Below are positions 9,812 to 32,038 of a DNA stretch of 32,038 nt, one piece after another. The notes under the pieces were generated by a model. That model searched no databases, was not told the DNA's origin, and saw only the letters and a list, made by a program, of their open reading frames with translations. The stretch spans positions 1 to 32,038 of IMG/VR virus record IMGVR_UViG_3300042691_038698. One strand, 5' to 3'. Position 1 is the stretch's first letter. Each line of letters opens with the position of its first letter. A program made the position numbers and the translations under genes. The DNA is from a virus.

Positions 9812-10340
9812 ACAGGAAGCCGAGGCACTGCGAGTCGGTGACGAGCAGGTCAGTGGTATTTCGAGCCTGGCACGTCGTGCCAAGCAGCTTTCTCGCGAGG
9901 TCGAGGACGCGGAAACGGTCCTCAAGGGCCTCAAGGATCAGTACCGCAAACTGACGGAAGAGACACTGCCCGAAGCGCTTGCCGAGACAGGCATGACGTC
10001 CTTCCGCATGGAAGACGGCAGTTCCATCACGATCAAGCCCTACTACAGTGCTTCGATCAGCGAGGCGCGGCGTGCGGAGGCCTTCCAGTGGCTGCGCGAC
10101 CGGGGCTTTGATGACATCATCAAGAACACCGTCAGTGTTCGTTTCGGTCGCGGCGAGGCGCCTCTTTGCGAGCGCCTGATCACGCTGCTGAGCGAGAACG
10201 GGTTCCGCTCCGAGGAAGCGGAAAAGGTCGAGCCCTCGACCCTCAAGGCATGGGTCAGGGAACGGGTGGAACGTGGCGAGGAGTTTCCGATGGAACTCTT
10301 CGGCGCGTACATCGGGAAGAGAGCCGAGATCAAGTCGTAA
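9789..10340 (+). CDS. Conserved phage protein with N-terminal coiled coil
   Basis: This 183-residue protein starts at the ATG at 9789, chosen because AAAGGAG lies about seven bases upstream and because the region before it is still coding for the previous gene. Residues of about 25-60 form a predicted coiled coil. A mixed domain follows (TSFRMEDGSSITIKPYYSASI), then a C-terminal motif STLKAWVRERVERGEEFPMELFG that is typical of this phage family. It is located directly before the candidate single-stranded DNA-binding protein, so a replication or recombination role is likely. No enzymatic residues are recognised. Confidence 0.75.
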   Translation: MSLTNLFEQEAEALRVGDEQVSGISSLARRAKQLSREVEDAETVLKGLKDQYRKLTEETLPEALAETGMTSFRMEDGSSITIKPYYSASISEARRAEAFQWLRDRGFDDIIKNTVSVRFGRGEAPLCERLITLLSENGFRSEEAEKVEPSTLKAWVRERVERGEEFPMELFGAYIGKRAEIKS

Positions 10341-13222: not shown

Positions 13223-14718
13223 GCGTAGAGAAGGTGTTTGGCCCTCCGGGCTCTGGCAAGACGACGTACCTGTTATCGGTGGTCGATAACGAGCTGTCTG
13301 GAGGAGTCCCTTCGAATGGGATTGGCTACTTTGCCTTCACTCGCAAGGCGGCAGCGGAGGCCACGGAGCGCGCGCAACGGAAGTTCCCGCACCTGGACCC
13401 CGAGCAGGACTTTCCGTGGTTTCGCACTCTGCACTCGTTGGCCTACCGGTGCCTTGGCATTGGCACGAAGGACATGATGACCCCGCAGAACTACGCGGAG
13501 TTTGCCAAGGGGGCAGGGATCGAACTTGCGATCGAACAGGGCGAGGAGGAGTTCGCTGTGAAGGCGGATCACCCGATCCTGAACGAGATCAACATCGCCC
13601 GGGTCAAGGGCCGAGACCTGCGGCAGCACTACAACGACAGCCAGATGACCATCGAGTGGCATCACTTCGAGTACGTCGACCGCGCTTACCGGCACTACAA
13701 GGCCTCGCACGGGCTGCTCGACTTCACGGACCTGATTGAGTACGTGCTGCAGGAGCCTGACCGGTTGCCGCGGCTGAAGGCGCTGATCGTTGACGAGGCC
13801 CAGGACCTGTCCCGCTTGCAGTGGCGGCTCGTGCAGGCGCTGATTGCCCGGGCGGAGCGTACGTACGTCGCCGGCGACGACGACCAGGCGGTCTACACGT
13901 GGGCCGGGGCTGACGTGGAGAGCTTCCTGACTCTGCGGGGCAACGTCCGCGTTCTGGACCAGTCCTACCGCGTGCCCTCGACGATCCACGCGCTTGCTGA
14001 CCGTGTCGTCCACCGGATCCGAAACCGCCAGGAGAAGACCTGGCGGCCGCGTACCGAGGGCGGCGCGATCGTCTACTACAACGACTTCCACCACGTCGAC
14101 CTGACGCGTGGAGACTGGCTGGTGCTGGCCGCGACGAACTACATGCTGTCGGACATGCACGAGTGGATCAAGTCCCAGGGGCTGCTCTTCGAGCGCCACG
14201 GACAACGGAGCATCTCCGAGGCTGTGCTGTCCGCGGTGGTCGGCTGGGAGCGGCTTCGCAAGGGCCAGGAGATCCCGTTCGAGCTGGTGAAGGGGATCTA
14301 CAAGTACCTCGATCCGAGCGCCGTGAAGCACGGGCACAAGAGCCTCAAGACGGCAGACATGGACGCGCTGTACAGCCACGCCCGTCTTGTCGAGCGGCAC
14401 GGGCTGCTGACGGATGCGATCTGGCACGAGGCGCTGACGAAGATCGGAGAGGACAAGCGGAACTACCTAGTGGCACTGCTTCGTCGCGGCATCCGGTTGA
14501 CCGACAAGGCCCCTATCAAGCTCTCGACGATCCACGGCGCGAAGGGGGGCGAAGCGGACAACGTGCTGCTGCTCGGGGACCTCTCGACGCGCTTCGCGAA
14601 GGAATACGACAACAACCCGGACGACATCAACCGCCTGCTGTACGTGGGCATCACCAGGGCGAAGCAGGCACTGCATGTCGTGCTTCCCCGCAACAACCAA
14701 AAGGGATTCAGACTATGA
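13219..14718 (+). CDS. UvrD/Rep-type superfamily 1 DNA helicase
   Basis: This 499-residue helicase has motif I GPPGSGKTT (K14), motif Ia AFTRKAAAEA, motif II IVDEAQDLS (D192, E193), motif III GDDDQAVYTWAGA, motif IV QSYRVPSTIH, motif V STIHGAKGGEADNV and motif VI LLYVGITRAKQAL. It is shorter than bacterial UvrD, which is usual for phage versions. It should translocate 3' to 5' on single-stranded DNA and unwind the fork or repair intermediates. The ATG at 13219 is chosen because it forms an ATGA overlap with the upstream gene and places the Walker A motif at the N-terminus. The stop overlaps the polymerase start as ATGA. Confidence 0.93.
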   Translation: MSVEKVFGPPGSGKTTYLLSVVDNELSGGVPSNGIGYFAFTRKAAAEATERAQRKFPHLDPEQDFPWFRTLHSLAYRCLGIGTKDMMTPQNYAEFAKGAGIELAIEQGEEEFAVKADHPILNEINIARVKGRDLRQHYNDSQMTIEWHHFEYVDRAYRHYKASHGLLDFTDLIEYVLQEPDRLPRLKALIVDEAQDLSRLQWRLVQALIARAERTYVAGDDDQAVYTWAGADVESFLTLRGNVRVLDQSYRVPSTIHALADRVVHRIRNRQEKTWRPRTEGGAIVYYNDFHHVDLTRGDWLVLAATNYMLSDMHEWIKSQGLLFERHGQRSISEAVLSAVVGWERLRKGQEIPFELVKGIYKYLDPSAVKHGHKSLKTADMDALYSHARLVERHGLLTDAIWHEALTKIGEDKRNYLVALLRRGIRLTDKAPIKLSTIHGAKGGEADNVLLLGDLSTRFAKEYDNNPDDINRLLYVGITRAKQALHVVLPRNNQKGFRL

Positions 14719-16571
14719 GTGGACTACCCCCGTCCGAGTGGACGCCCCCCGCCTCTTTCCCGGACCTTTCCGCCGCAACGGAGATTGCGATCGACCTCGA
14801 AACGTGTGACCCCAACATGGAGTCGATGGGGCCAGGATGGCCCCGGAAGGACGGGTACATCGTCGGATACGCGATCGCCGTGGACGGCTGGCGGGGATAC
14901 TTCCCCGTGGCGCATCAGGGCGGAGGCAACCTGGACCGTGGCGTGGTCGAGCGCTGGGTTCGGCGGGTGCTCGAGTTGCCCTGCGACAAGATCATGCACA
15001 ACGCCGCGTACGACCTCGGGTGGCTCCGCGCCACCGGGTTCACGGTCAACGGCACGATCTACGACACGATGATCGCGGCGTCGCTGGTCGACGAGAACCG
15101 GTTCAGCTACACGCTCAACTCCCTGGGCTTTGACTACCTCAAGGAGGTGAAGTCTGAGCAGGGGCTGAAGGACGCGGCGGCCGACTTCGGCGTGCATCCC
15201 AAGAAGGAGCTGTGGAAGCTGCCGGCGATGTACGTCGGGGAGTACGCGGAGCAGGACGCTGCGCTGACCCTGAAGCTCTGGCATCACCTGAAGACGCTGA
15301 TCCACAAGGAGGAGGTGGGGTCGATCTTCGACCTCGAGACGGAGCTGATGCCCGTCCTCGTGGACCTGACCTACCGCGGCATCCGGTTCGACCGGGCGAA
15401 GTGCGAGCGGCTGCTCGACGAGTTCCGCGAGCGGGAGGCCAGGCATCTCGAGCAGATCCGAGCGCTCTCGGGGGAGGGGGTGGACATCTGGGCGGCTGCC
15501 AGCATTGCCCGGGCCTTCGACAAGCTGGGGCTCGTCTTTCCGAAGACGGCGACCGGCCTGCCGAGCTTCACCCGTTCGTTTCTTGAGAGCCACGAGCACC
15601 CGATTGCAAAGCTGATCGTGGAGGCGCGGGAGCTGAACAAGACCCACGGCACCTTCCTCGAGCCGTACTTGCGCCACAGCGAGAAGGACGGGAGGATTCA
15701 CCCCCACATCAACCAGATCCGTTCCGACGACGGCGGGACCGTCACGGGGCGGCTCTCGATGAACAGCCCCAACCTGCAGCAGGTCCCCGCGCGCCATGAA
15801 ACCATCGGCCCCTTGGTACGGTCACTGTTCCTCCCCGAGGAGGGGCAGCTTTGGGCAGCCAACGACTTCGGCTCACAAGAGCCACGGCTTCTCGTCCACT
15901 ACGCCACGCTACTGGACCTCCCCGGCGCCGAGCGGATGGCACAGGCGTATCGCGACGACCCCCGGACCGACTTCCACCAGATGGTGGCGGACATGGCAGG
16001 GATCAAACGCAAGGCCGCCAAGACCATCGGGCTCGGGCTGATGTACGGGATGGGCAAGCAGAAGCTTGCCAACTCCCTGGACCTGCCCCTTGAGGACGCC
16101 GCGGAGCTGATCTCGAAGTTCCACACCAACGTGCCCTTCCTGCGCGGGACGATCAACGCCGTGATGCGCCGGATCGAACACCCGGCCTCCAGCGGGTCGA
16201 TCCGGACACTGCTTGGCCGCAAGTGCCGCTTCCCTCTCTGGGAGCCCGTCGAGTACGGGATCCACAAGGCACTGCCCCGGGAGCAGGCGGCGATAGAGTA
16301 CGGCCCGCGGATCAAGCGGGCGATGACGTACAAGGGCCTCAACAGGCTGATCCAGGGCTCGGCAGCGGACCAGACGAAGGCGGCCATGGTCGCGCTGCAC
16401 CGGGCAGGGTTCCCGGTGCTGTTGCAGGTGCACGACGAGATTGCGCTCAGTGTGGACGGGCGAGAGGCCGCGGACCACGCGTCAAGGATCATGCGAGAGG
16501 CCGTGTCCCTCGAGGTTCCTTCCCTGGTCGACGTTGAGATCGGCCCCTCGTGGGGAGAGGCTCGGGGGTAG
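14715..16571 (+). CDS. polA: Family A DNA polymerase with 3'-5' exonuclease
   Basis: This 618-residue replicative polymerase has a DnaQ-like exonuclease at its N-terminus: AIDLET (D27, E29), HNAAYDLGWL, and YAEQDAAL as the third motif. The polymerase half has motif A ANDFGSQEPRL (D384), motif B KRKAAKTIGLGLMYG and motif C QVHDEIA (H573, D574, E575). There is no 5'-3' nuclease domain, as usual in phages. The residue equivalent to Phe762 of E. coli Pol I is Leu440. The ATG at 14715 forms an ATGA overlap with the UvrD gene. The gene ends the replication operon; a new promoter begins at once after it. Confidence 0.95.
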   Translation: MSGLPPSEWTPPASFPDLSAATEIAIDLETCDPNMESMGPGWPRKDGYIVGYAIAVDGWRGYFPVAHQGGGNLDRGVVERWVRRVLELPCDKIMHNAAYDLGWLRATGFTVNGTIYDTMIAASLVDENRFSYTLNSLGFDYLKEVKSEQGLKDAAADFGVHPKKELWKLPAMYVGEYAEQDAALTLKLWHHLKTLIHKEEVGSIFDLETELMPVLVDLTYRGIRFDRAKCERLLDEFREREARHLEQIRALSGEGVDIWAAASIARAFDKLGLVFPKTATGLPSFTRSFLESHEHPIAKLIVEARELNKTHGTFLEPYLRHSEKDGRIHPHINQIRSDDGGTVTGRLSMNSPNLQQVPARHETIGPLVRSLFLPEEGQLWAANDFGSQEPRLLVHYATLLDLPGAERMAQAYRDDPRTDFHQMVADMAGIKRKAAKTIGLGLMYGMGKQKLANSLDLPLEDAAELISKFHTNVPFLRGTINAVMRRIEHPASSGSIRTLLGRKCRFPLWEPVEYGIHKALPREQAAIEYGPRIKRAMTYKGLNRLIQGSAADQTKAAMVALHRAGFPVLLQVHDEIALSVDGREAADHASRIMREAVSLEVPSLVDVEIGPSWGEARG

Positions 16572-23895: not shown

Positions 23896-24128
23896 GCGCC
23901 CCTGTCGTCAAGTTCGTGCCGGTGGACGACCTTCCGCTGGTTCAGCTGTTGATCATCACGATCAACGGGACGCAGTACGCGCTCGTCGGGCCCGTGATCC
24001 ACGTTCCAGGGAACAACCCGTCTTTCAATATCACCGAGATCGAGTTCGGTGACATCCTGCCCGCGAGCGCCGCGGCGCGGATGTTGGAGGGGGCGTTTCG
24101 GGAGCACATGGGCTCGAAGGTGCAGTGA
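23892..24128 (+). CDS. Small unknown protein (78 aa)
   Basis: ATGA overlap at its start. Beta-rich sequence with PLVQLLIITINGTQYALVGPVIH and FNITEIEFGDILPASA, then a C-terminal helix. Compact globular fold likely. Directly precedes the dioxygenase gene with a one-base overlap, so a shared role is possible but unproven. Confidence 0.62.
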   Translation: MSAPVVKFVPVDDLPLVQLLIITINGTQYALVGPVIHVPGNNPSFNITEIEFGDILPASAAARMLEGAFREHMGSKVQ

Positions 24129-24931
24129 TGGGCTCCGCGGACATCGACCGATGGATCCGGGAGCAGCACGGGGCCGGCCACTCGCGTAACCAGCTGTTAC
24201 ACCAGCTGATCACGTACGGGTGGTCGGCGCCTGTGGCCGAGAAGGCGCTGGCCGCCGTGCTCGGTGAGCCTGGGCCGGCGGTGCCGCAACAGCGGGAGGT
24301 CGAGATCGAAGGGCACCGCGTGGAGGTGCTCGTGAACCTCCAGCAGCCCCGCTTCGCCTACCTGCGCGGGCTGCTTACCCGGGAAGAGTGCGAGGCGCTC
24401 ATCGAAGCGGCTCGGCCACGACTCGTCCCCTCCGCCGTTGTGGACTCCGAGACAGGAGGGAACGTGCCCCACGCCGCGCGCGTGAGCGACGGCATGGCGT
24501 TCGAGGTGGGGGAGCTGCCGCTGCTCGATCGGATCGAGTGGCGGATACAGGGCCTTGTGTCATGGCCCATGGGCCACGGCGAGGCTATCCAGGTCCTGCG
24601 GTACCGCCCCGGCGGCCGCTACGACCCCCACTTCGACTATTTCGACCCCAAGGTGCCAGGCTCGAGCCGGCCACTGGCCCAGGCGGGCAACAGGGTGGGG
24701 ACGCTGATCATGGTCCTGCAGGCGCCGGAGACGGGCGGGGAGACGGTGTTTCCTGATGCAGGGCTCACGGTCCACGGGCGCCAGGGGGACGGGATTCTGT
24801 TCACCTACGGGCGCCCTGACCCGTCCACGAAGAGCCTCCACGGGGGCTCGCCGGTGGTCCGGGGGGAGAAGTGGATCGCCACGAAATGGTTTCGAGAGTC
24901 AGAATATTCGGTTGCGCGGCCGCCTCCCTAG
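24128..24931 (+). CDS. Prolyl-4-hydroxylase-like 2OG-Fe(II) dioxygenase
   Basis: This 267-residue enzyme has the iron ligands H168-F-D170 in YDPHFDYF and H238 in SLHGGSPV, and K248 in GEKWIATKW, placed ten residues later to bind 2-oxoglutarate, as in P4H. LRGLLTREECEALIE and VLQAPETGGETVFP are further family marks. The first 45 residues form a small helical domain (WIREQHGAGHSRNQLLHQLI) often found in bacterial P4H homologues. It should hydroxylate a prolyl residue using oxygen and 2-oxoglutarate. The substrate is unknown; a PPGG-rich virion protein is encoded at 1179-3209. ATG at 24128 is preferred over GTG at 24125. A terminator follows. Confidence 0.9.
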   Translation: MGSADIDRWIREQHGAGHSRNQLLHQLITYGWSAPVAEKALAAVLGEPGPAVPQQREVEIEGHRVEVLVNLQQPRFAYLRGLLTREECEALIEAARPRLVPSAVVDSETGGNVPHAARVSDGMAFEVGELPLLDRIEWRIQGLVSWPMGHGEAIQVLRYRPGGRYDPHFDYFDPKVPGSSRPLAQAGNRVGTLIMVLQAPETGGETVFPDAGLTVHGRQGDGILFTYGRPDPSTKSLHGGSPVVRGEKWIATKWFRESEYSVARPPP

Positions 24932-24957
24932 AGATCCTTCCCTCGTGTTGGCCGCGG

Positions 24958-24990
24958 CCCCCGGAGACGAGAGTTTCCGGGGGTTTTTTT
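24958..24990 (+). terminator. Strong intrinsic terminator
   Basis: CCCCCGGA (24958-24965) pairs with TCCGGGGG (24976-24983), followed by seven T (24984-24990). It ends the unit that includes the dioxygenase gene. Confidence 0.9.
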
Positions 24991-25000
24991 CGGGCTGGGG

Positions 25001-25034
25001 TGCATGAATATGCATGGATCATGCATGAATATGC
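25001..25034. repeat. Direct repeats TGCATGAATATGC around a palindrome
   Basis: TGCATGAATATGC occurs at 25001-25013 and 25022-25034, a 21-bp period (two helical turns). Between and overlapping them is the inverted repeat ATGCATG-GAT-CATGCAT (25010-25026). ATATGCAT recurs at 25296-25303. The layout suits protein binding sites. No coding gene is seen from 24932 to 25422. Confidence 0.7.
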
Positions 25035-25152
25035 GTACGGGAGGGGGACAGGAGGGGGTTGGAGGGGCAAGGGGAAGGGAGCAAGGGCCACGGACCGCGG
25101 ACCACGGGGCTGAAAACCGACCGCAGGATGGCCAAAAAGGGGCGTTTTCGGA

Positions 25153-25372
25153 GGTTTCATATAGACCTCCAGCCATAAAATTTTTCTGTTTCGAATTTTT
25201 CAAATTCAGCGTATTGAGCGTAATTGAGGTAATAGTTCTTGTGTATCAAGTACTTAGGTACTGTACAGTCTACTTACAGTACTCAAGTGATGAAATATGC
25301 ATAAAAATCGCGCGGGGGTTGAGTTTTTAGTTTTCGTTTTTTTTTTATGGCTAGAAAGTCTATATAGAAACC
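25153..25372. repeat. Long inverted repeat bounding an AT-rich core
   Basis: The left arm (25153-25180) and right arm (25343-25372) are inverted copies. Matched blocks are TTTTATGGCT, TCTATAT and GAAACC, separated by small mismatches; a further CGAAAA match lies outside each arm. The core of about 160 bp is very AT-rich compared with the rest of the genome and holds another palindrome. Possible origin of replication, packaging site or control region. Confidence 0.7.
25252..25288. promoter_or_regulatory. Imperfect 14-bp inverted repeat (operator or iteron candidate)
   Basis: ACTTAGGTACTGTA (25252-25265) faces TACAGTACTCAAGT (25275-25288) across nine bases, with 12 of 14 positions complementary. 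It includes a perfect 10-bp palindrome ACTGTACAGT (25260-25269). It sits in the middle of the AT-rich core. Confidence 0.55.
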
Positions 25373-25422
25373 CGAAAATTGGGGTCCTGGACGGGTTTGT
25401 TGTCCTGTTGTAGGCTGTCGTT

Positions 25423-25638
25423 ATGTTGGAGATCGAGACAGACGTCCCCTTGCCGGGCAACCTCGGGCGGTTGAAGTACCCCTTCGACGACATGCACGTG
25501 GGTGACAGCTTCCTGATCACGGACCCGGGGATGGTCAAAAACGCTCGAAGTGCTGCATGGATGTATGCCAAGCGTCATGGCCAGCGATTTTCATGCAGGC
25601 GGGTGGAAGACGGTTGGCGGGTCTGGAGAGTCGCGTGA
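25423..25638 (+). CDS. Small conserved phage protein before small terminase
   Basis: This 71-residue protein has LKYPFDDMHVGDSFLI, then SAAWMYAKRHGQRFSCRRVEDGWRVWRV. This pattern (YPF.DM..GDSF ... A..YAKRHG..F..R) is familiar in many small phage proteins of unknown function. No clear ribosome binding site precedes the ATG. Its stop overlaps a GTG as GTGA, the likely start of the next gene. Confidence 0.75.
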   Translation: MLEIETDVPLPGNLGRLKYPFDDMHVGDSFLITDPGMVKNARSAAWMYAKRHGQRFSCRRVEDGWRVWRVA

Positions 25639-26378
25639 CCAGCAAGAAAGAGGACGCCTTCATGGCGCGCATAGGCCGCGGCATCCCCCAGACCACGCTG
25701 GACAAGATCAGCCAGCCGGTCGTCGACAAGAAGCCCACAGGCAACAAGTCGCGCCGGCGCGACCAAGCCCTGACCACGCAGGAGTGGAAATTCGTCAACG
25801 AGTTCGTCGCCGGCGACGGCCACGTCACCGCCAAGGAGGCAGCCCTCCGGGCGGGGTACCCGGAGAAGCGCGCCAAGTACTACGCCGAGACCCTGACGGA
25901 CCCGGGCATCAATCCGCACATCGTGGCGGAGATCCAGAAGCTGCGGGCGGAGTTTGCCGAGAGGTACGGCACGACCTACGAGCGCCACATGCGCGACCTG
26001 CAGCTGATCAGGGATCAGGCACTGGCTGCCGGCGCCTACGGCGCCGCGGTGCAGGCTGAGTACCGCCGCGGGCAGGCCCTTGGGACGATCTACATCGACC
26101 GCAAGGAGATCCGCCACGGCACGATCGACTCGATGAGCAAGGAGGAGGTCCTGCGCAAGCTGCAGGAGATCCAGAAGCTTTACGGCAACGGCTCTCCCGT
26201 CATCGACGTGACCCCGACGCAGGTCGCGGACAGCCTCCAGCACGAGGATCCGCCCCCACCAGAGGAGCCCGAGCCCCCCAATGAAGCCCGAGACCCGCCT
26301 GTATCACCGCCTCAAAGACAATCTTTCGAACTGCCTTATTACCCGGGTCGAAACCTGGGTGAACCTGGGGATACCTGA
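25635..26378 (+). CDS. Putative terminase small subunit, possibly frameshifted at the C-terminus
   Basis: This 247-residue protein has TTQEWKFVNEFVAGDGHVTAKEAALRAGYPEKRAKYYAETLTDPGINPHIVAEI, the helix-turn-helix pattern of phage small terminases, followed by a helical oligomerisation region (RHMRDLQLIRDQALAAGAYGAAVQAE). Small terminase recognises the packaging site. The GTG at 25635 (GTGA overlap) is chosen; ATG at 25662 is an alternative. After the acidic Pro-rich tail the frame runs on for 98 bases over the next gene. One extra C in the C6 run at 26274-26279 would instead stop it in an ATGA overlap. No large terminase follows in the window. Confidence 0.75.
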   Translation: MTSKKEDAFMARIGRGIPQTTLDKISQPVVDKKPTGNKSRRRDQALTTQEWKFVNEFVAGDGHVTAKEAALRAGYPEKRAKYYAETLTDPGINPHIVAEIQKLRAEFAERYGTTYERHMRDLQLIRDQALAAGAYGAAVQAEYRRGQALGTIYIDRKEIRHGTIDSMSKEEVLRKLQEIQKLYGNGSPVIDVTPTQVADSLQHEDPPPPEEPEPPNEARDPPVSPPQRQSFELPYYPGRNLGEPGDT

Positions 26379-29001: not shown

Positions 29002-29022
29002 GGCGGCGGGACCTCTCGCCAG

Positions 29023-29060
29023 CGGCCGGCATTCCCACGGGTGCCGGCCGTTTTTTTTTT
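29023..29060 (+). terminator. Intrinsic terminator after the DUF932 gene
   Basis: CGGCCGGCA (29023-29031) pairs with TGCCGGCCG (29042-29050), followed by ten T. Its stems and flanks are the same as those of the terminator at 31637. Confidence 0.92.
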
Positions 29061-31607: not shown

Positions 31608-31636
31608 GCGCTGTCGAGATGGTCGACGTCGGCCAG

Positions 31637-31671
31637 CGGCCGGCATCCTCGCGGGTGCCGGCCGTTTTTTT
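31637..31671 (+). terminator. Intrinsic terminator after the amidotransferase gene
   Basis: CGGCCGGCA (31637-31645) pairs with TGCCGGCCG (31656-31664), followed by seven T. About 36 of 39 bases, including the flanking CCAG, equal the terminator at 29023. Confidence 0.92.
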
Positions 31672-31746: not shown

Positions 31747-31958
31747 CAGGCCGGCCGGTATGGGATGCCGGGGGCTCTCGCAGGGCACTGCAGCAGAGTC
31801 CCGTGTTCCGCCCAGCAGGCCGGCTCCGGCGGTCTCCGGGGCCCTGACGGGCTCATGGCCCATGGTTCGTGGCGCGTCGATCTGTGCGCGCGGTATGCGG
31901 CCGTGGTCCGTGTTTGTTACCTGCCGGTCTAGCTGCTCGGGCCGTGGTCCGTGGGGCG

Positions 31959-32038
31959 CTGGCCGAGCTCCGCTGGTCGAGGTCCGCTGGTCGAGGTCCG
32001 CTGGTCGAGGTCCGCTGGTCGAGGTCCGCTGGTCGAGG
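31959..32038. repeat. 14-bp tandem repeats at the window edge
   Basis: Four perfect units TCGAGGTCCGCTGG from 31977 to 32032, a degenerate unit before them (31963-31976), and a partial unit reaching the last base. The array may continue beyond the window. No gene is supported between 31608 and 32038. Confidence 0.88.

Follow-up and report, generated by a model that had tools for sequence, protein, structure and literature searches.

What is the role of the AT-rich DNA, laden with direct and inverted repeats, that lies upstream of the small terminase gene (TerS) of an uncultured freshwater phage? We studied it in a 32,038-bp IMG/VR virus record (the window, by which we mean this whole stretch), which is part of a phage genome whose relatives include contigs of 59–62 kb. 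The original prediction named two possible roles, an origin of replication or a start site for packaging. The phages that bear the element form a family with genomes of about 60 kb. Among named records, Phage DSL-LC04 comes closest. Its genome was assembled from a Dishui Lake metagenome, and the new family 'Dishuiviridae' has been proposed for it (PMC10611076). The pelagiphages HTVC023P and HTVC027P are isolated, cultured relatives of the window phage, and a published account calls HTVC023P-type pelagiphages widespread in nature (PMC9599517).

The element in the window

At 35.0% GC, the 240 bp from 25141 to 25380 have the lowest GC content of all segments of that size in the record, which average 61.4% (sd 5.9 points) and reach a minimum of 43.8% beyond the region. 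The strong AT bias had been predicted, and so had a long inverted repeat (25153–25180 and 25343–25372). The arms of this repeat are present and slightly longer than predicted (Table 1). In a whole-record scan for arms that flank a spacer they form the best pair, with a score of 41 versus 27 for the runner-up (mean 16.8, sd 2.7); scored against 20 block shuffles of their own region, they reach 37 versus a maximum of 20. An imperfect inverted repeat of 14 bp is also there as predicted (25252–25265 and 25275–25288, 86% complementary) and overlaps the IHF-type site.

Two more of the predicted features exist in the window without being conserved parts of the element. The first is a direct repeat with a 21-bp period (TGCATGAATATGC, exact at 25001–25013 and 25022–25034). 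It looks private to the window phage, since blastn of the region against 81 loci matched only the window itself there. The second is a terminator before the region, at 24956–24985.

The gene that follows the region is indeed a small terminase (PHROG 51, E 2.5e-7). Between it and the arms sits an ORF of 71 amino acids that was absent from the original prediction. In the window and in related phages this ORF seems to start 6 nt past the -10-like hexamer TAGGCT or TAGACT, as in leaderless mRNAs. The upstream neighbour is a 2OG-Fe(II) oxygenase gene (24125–24931, PHROG 61), which by eye is divergent in some relatives. Elsewhere, the record contains two near-identical strong terminators (29021–29052 and 31635–31666; AGCGGCCGGCATYC..GGTGCCGGCCGTT, then a T-run). 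Its end falls within a 14-bp tandem repeat (GAGGTCCGCTGGTC, 31963–32038), in which the assembly probably stopped; copies of CCGTGGTCCGTG are found at 31901 and 31942.

Table 1. Features of the element and its downstream neighbours in the window
Feature	Position	Strand	Remarks
Heptad tract CACGGACCGCGGACCACGG (GGACCRC units)	25088..25106		blastn matches in many loci; consensus GGACCACGGACCACGG
Left inverted arm	25145..25180	+	Arm scans; also in relatives
Three degenerate ~9-bp direct repeats (GCGTATT, GCGTAAT, GAGGTAAT)	25209..25233	+	Relatives: GACGTAAT / GGTGTAAT
IHF-type consensus site TATCAAGTACTTA	25244..25256	+	Sole match in the 32-kb record
Inverted repeat copy CTTACAG	25273..25279	-	Relatives: ATTACA; within imperfect inverted repeat 25252–25288
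Further direct repeat copy GTGATGAAAT	25287..25296	+	Relatives: GGTGTAATTT
CG run CGCGCGGGGG	25309..25318		Most relatives: GCGCGCGCG
Right inverted arm	25343..25378	-	Arm scans
-10-like hexamer TAGGCT	25411..25416	+	By eye; ends 6 nt upstream of the start codon (ATG) of the 71-aa ORF; relatives: TAGACT
71-aa ORF	25423..25638	+	Weak DUF7303/PHROG 10287 similarity
Small terminase (TerS)	25635..26378	+	GTG start overlaps the TGA of the 71-aa ORF

Layout and neighbours in freshwater and marine relatives

Our comparison covers 58 distinct sequences upstream of TerS and an aligned set of 69 non-redundant contexts (from 131). Across freshwater relatives the parts follow one order. A heptad tract, (GGACCRC)n, is followed by the left arm, an A/T tract and three direct 9-bp repeats (GACGTAAT or GGTGTAAT); then come the IHF-type site, an inverted ATTACA, a direct GGTGTAATTT, a GCGCGCG run, a second A/T tract, the right arm and the genes. 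The 9-bp repeats of the window copy are degenerate, yet its IHF-type site agrees perfectly with the consensus. The repeats are degenerate in DSL-LC04 as well, and a loose scan for repeat density misses the element in DSL-LC04 and in relative G007 and gives a tie in the window. Most relatives also have the heptad tract to the left of the arm. The GGACCRC heptads of relatives (L006, ~10054–10099; L013, 3839 and 10135–10153) occur both left of the element and some 5 kb past TerS, and in HTVC027P (L179, from 5201) heptads of the CAAGCTT type are found upstream of TerS.

The IHF consensus is WATCAANNNNTTR. By manual count, 37 of the 58 upstream regions carry a perfect match at the equivalent place. 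Among 23 non-redundant contexts located by their repeats, without use of the IHF-type motif, 21 have a perfect match; counted from the start of the repeats, the best IHF-type site begins at +35 bp in 22 of the 23. Among 20,000 random windows of 18 positions only 2 match. The strict motif is rare in HTVC023P-type phages (1 hit in 45 upstream regions; a looser form in 9/35), and none was found in the core of 023Pt_psg01.

The arms were predicted to be conserved in related phages, and they do recur. Own-arm scores exceed the 99th percentile of shuffles in 44 of 69 freshwater contexts and in 19 of 35 HTVC023P-type loci, where the right arm adjoins TerS. In the other 25 freshwater contexts they do not rise above that percentile, and some of these hold mixed arm versions (by eye). 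Arm sequences differ between freshwater genomes, and arms score on average 35.5 when paired within a genome, 23.9 when paired between genomes and 17.0 when shuffled. A left arm has its own right arm as best partner in just 16 of 69 freshwater contexts (among the top three in 22), which we attribute to close relatives sharing arms. In HTVC023P-type loci own and cross-genome scores are equal (33.4 and 34.5), so arm co-variation is not shown in that group. In G007, G008, G010, HTVC023P and HTVC027P another inverted repeat outscores the arms.

The constant companion of the element is TerS. We scanned IMG/VR with the repeat pattern alone, blind to genes, and obtained 85 phage contigs, some of which also belong to our TerS-based set. 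Of these, 79 carry TerS immediately downstream, in the same orientation; the other six end before TerS, and none contradicts the linkage. Closeness to TerS, as expected of a pac or cos site, is thus found in all 79 informative contigs, and also in the three marine records. The repeats begin 200–1500 bp from TerS in 66 contigs and 170–194 bp in 13; judging from the short distance, these 13 of the 79 relatives apparently lack the 71-aa ORF.

In the marine pelagiphages HTVC023P, 023Pt_psg01 and HTVC027P the layout is kept and the repeats differ (CTAGGAAA, TTGGCACA and TTACAATG, respectively). At least three CTAGGAAA-type repeats precede TerS in 34 of 35 non-redundant HTVC023P-type loci, and in the HTVC023P genome this is the only such cluster on that strand. 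Between the arms of the best inverted repeat of the 023Pt_psg01 genome (13639–13687 / 13815–13861, score 45) are GACGCGCGCGACC and TTGGCACA repeats of both orientations. TerS runs the opposite way in this genome, and the element is found 3' of the gene; all 25 psg01-type loci with enough sequence have a repeat cluster at that side. HTVC027P, whose TerS is inverted too, likewise has its element 3' of the gene (14739–14953), with TTACAATG repeats, TGCGCG and, on the opposite strand, an IHF-type site. It is thus the genome layout that the element follows, whichever way TerS is read.

Packaging, replication or regulation

We think that the element probably serves to initiate packaging, as a pac- or cos-like site to which TerS and IHF would bind, a reading held with moderate confidence. 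The packaging half of the original prediction is thus favoured, by the linkage to TerS, by parts that resemble cosB and pac, and by the SF6/SPP1-type domain of TerS. TerS would bind the repeat clusters on either side of the IHF-type site, and IHF would bend the DNA and bring the clusters face to face. The complex of TerS, IHF and DNA would then position TerL, with the first cut falling within or beside the element.

According to profile and model, the DNA-binding domain of TerS matches the SF6/SPP1 small-terminase kind. The alignment profile hits the DNA-binding domain of the SF6 small terminase (4zc3, E 1.6e-6; 3zqp, 1.9e-6; 2cmp, 5.3e-6). The TerS model has a low mean pLDDT of 63.5 overall, with about 76–90 in the helix-turn-helix region, and superposes on 4zc3 with a Z of 9.9 and an rmsd of 1.2 over 57 residues (PaP3 TerS: Z 7.9). 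Foldseek ranks the same three SF6 entries first, but gives no E-value below 0.17.

HTVC023P-type and window TerS proteins are 29–30% identical (alignment A1), and among the four named phages TerS identity is 26–36%, compared with 56–75% for TerL, 47–57% for PolA and 69–74% for the capsid. This divergence is not special to TerS, because helicase (29–38%) and primase (27–45%) diverge almost as much. Freshwater phages differ in what is presumably the recognition helix of TerS, while their repeats hardly change (alignment A1). SF6 TerS is reported to bind pac DNA without sequence preference (PMC4737164), so the repeats may be conserved without being sites for TerS.

What the arms contribute is a matter of guesswork; they could be a symmetric pair of cutting or anchoring sites. 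A more specific version, to which we give a small chance, is that they are paired terminase nick sites on opposite strands, and that after nicking the core of about 200 bp, with its repeats and IHF-type site, would become a short terminal repeat through fill-in or strand displacement. Such arms must match within a genome and drift between genomes, a pattern that the freshwater group fits. If this version is true, freshwater phages and widespread ocean pelagiphages would share a site-specific design of genome ends.

Seven of the 85 repeat-bearing contigs stop no more than 157 bp before the repeats, and the next end is not seen until 396 bp. Because these ends do not share one base, and most fall in T-tracts or around the left arm, we read them as assembly breaks. 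An exact genome end can thus not be taken from them, as no fixed cut base emerges.

One could also argue that the element is an iteron-type origin of replication, at which an initiator protein of the phage would occupy the repeats and, with assistance from IHF, the A/T tracts would melt. Repeats, an IHF-type site and AT-rich DNA are classic parts of an origin, and annotated relatives have the replication module on one side of the element and the late genes on the other. The SPP1 oriR, situated in the late region, is likewise intergenic and combines direct repeats with AT-rich DNA (PMC6316719). However, initiators of the two families searched, Rep_3 (PF01051) and lambda-O type (PF04492), were found in none of 18 records, and the constant neighbour of the repeats in the gene-blind contigs is TerS, which adjoins in every contig that is long enough, and not a replication gene. 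GC skew, which should change at an origin, gives a mixed picture: its cumulative curve is near a local minimum at the element in G002, but near a maximum in G008 and near neither in DSL-LC04. The origin half of the original prediction seems unlikely to us, although it is the alternative that deserves most weight.

It is improbable that the element is a regulatory region, that is, an operator or enhancer of the TerS operon or the source of a structured RNA formed by the arms. A promoter-like sequence does follow the right arm, and both strands of the element fold well (z -5.1 and -5.9). Yet the two strands fold about equally, as those of any inverted repeat would. In the arms, G-U pairs are more frequent than A-C mismatches (59:39 and 29:12; pooled 88:51, p 0.002), but this excess is compositional, because artificial pairs of arms from different genomes show one of the same size (ratios of 1.84 and 2.07, versus 1.51 and 2.42 for own arms). 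We reject a structured RNA on the basis of this control; a search of Rfam returned no match for the element. Promoter or operator of TerS as the sole role is also rejected: two of the three named marine records have TerS turned round, but the element keeps its orientation and place, on the 3' side of the gene.

An attP integration site of a temperate phage would share with the lambda attP its general plan, in which an IHF site is combined with core sites and repeats of the arm type, but we discard this highly improbable reading, as no integrase or resolvase turned up in the 15 records, including the complete DSL-LC04, searched for tyrosine integrases (PF00589) and serine recombinases (PF00239).

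Comparison with known packaging sites

A literature search of papers available without subscription recognised no published description of the element, and the portions of the literature it reached contain no description of the genome ends or packaging signal of HTVC023P-type phages. The parts are of known kinds; their combination with long inverted arms, the spread over freshwater and marine phages, and the changing repeats were not found in this literature. A TerS review treats the way in which TerS recognises DNA as unresolved (PMC9611059). If our packaging reading is true, the element offers a natural series in which the repeats change while the layout stays, usable for working out TerS-DNA recognition. 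With a candidate of 200–250 bp and predicted TerS and IHF sites, packaging becomes testable in two cultured phages of a largely uncultured family.

Among known systems, the pac site of SPP1 and SF6, arranged as pacL-pacC-pacR (PMC4856287, PMC6316719, PMC4737164), shares with our element a TerS with a homologous DNA-binding domain, direct repeats and the symmetric flanking of a centre. As described there, SPP1 pac overlaps the promoter and gene of TerS, whereas the element keeps its place even where TerS is inverted. The portions of these three sources available to us mention no IHF element at SPP1 pac, in contrast to the IHF-type site here.

In lambda, cosB is built as R3-I1-R2-R1, three TerS sites with IHF (PMC4856287). 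Like cosB and cosN, the element has three TerS-type repeats, an IHF-type site, A/T tracts and a CG-rich symmetric stretch, and lies upstream of TerS. It differs from them in that the three main repeats are all on one side of the IHF-type site, with the inverted copy and the arms as extras. Unlike the lambda site, it is not known to have cohesive ends.

The pac site of P1 spans 161 bp and consists of seven hexamer repeats in two groups, an IHF site and a cut site (PMC10028697). Our element resembles it in having short repeats in two groups and an IHF-type site within about 160–240 bp at the small terminase gene. The P1 hexamers are Dam sites, whereas the repeats here are of the GTAAT type, lie outside TerS and are flanked by long inverted arms, and the cut site is a prediction. 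Still, repeated short sites around a putative IHF site at a fixed spacing are what the plan of P1 pac and lambda cosB would lead us to expect, and this is the arrangement found in the sequences of the freshwater phages.
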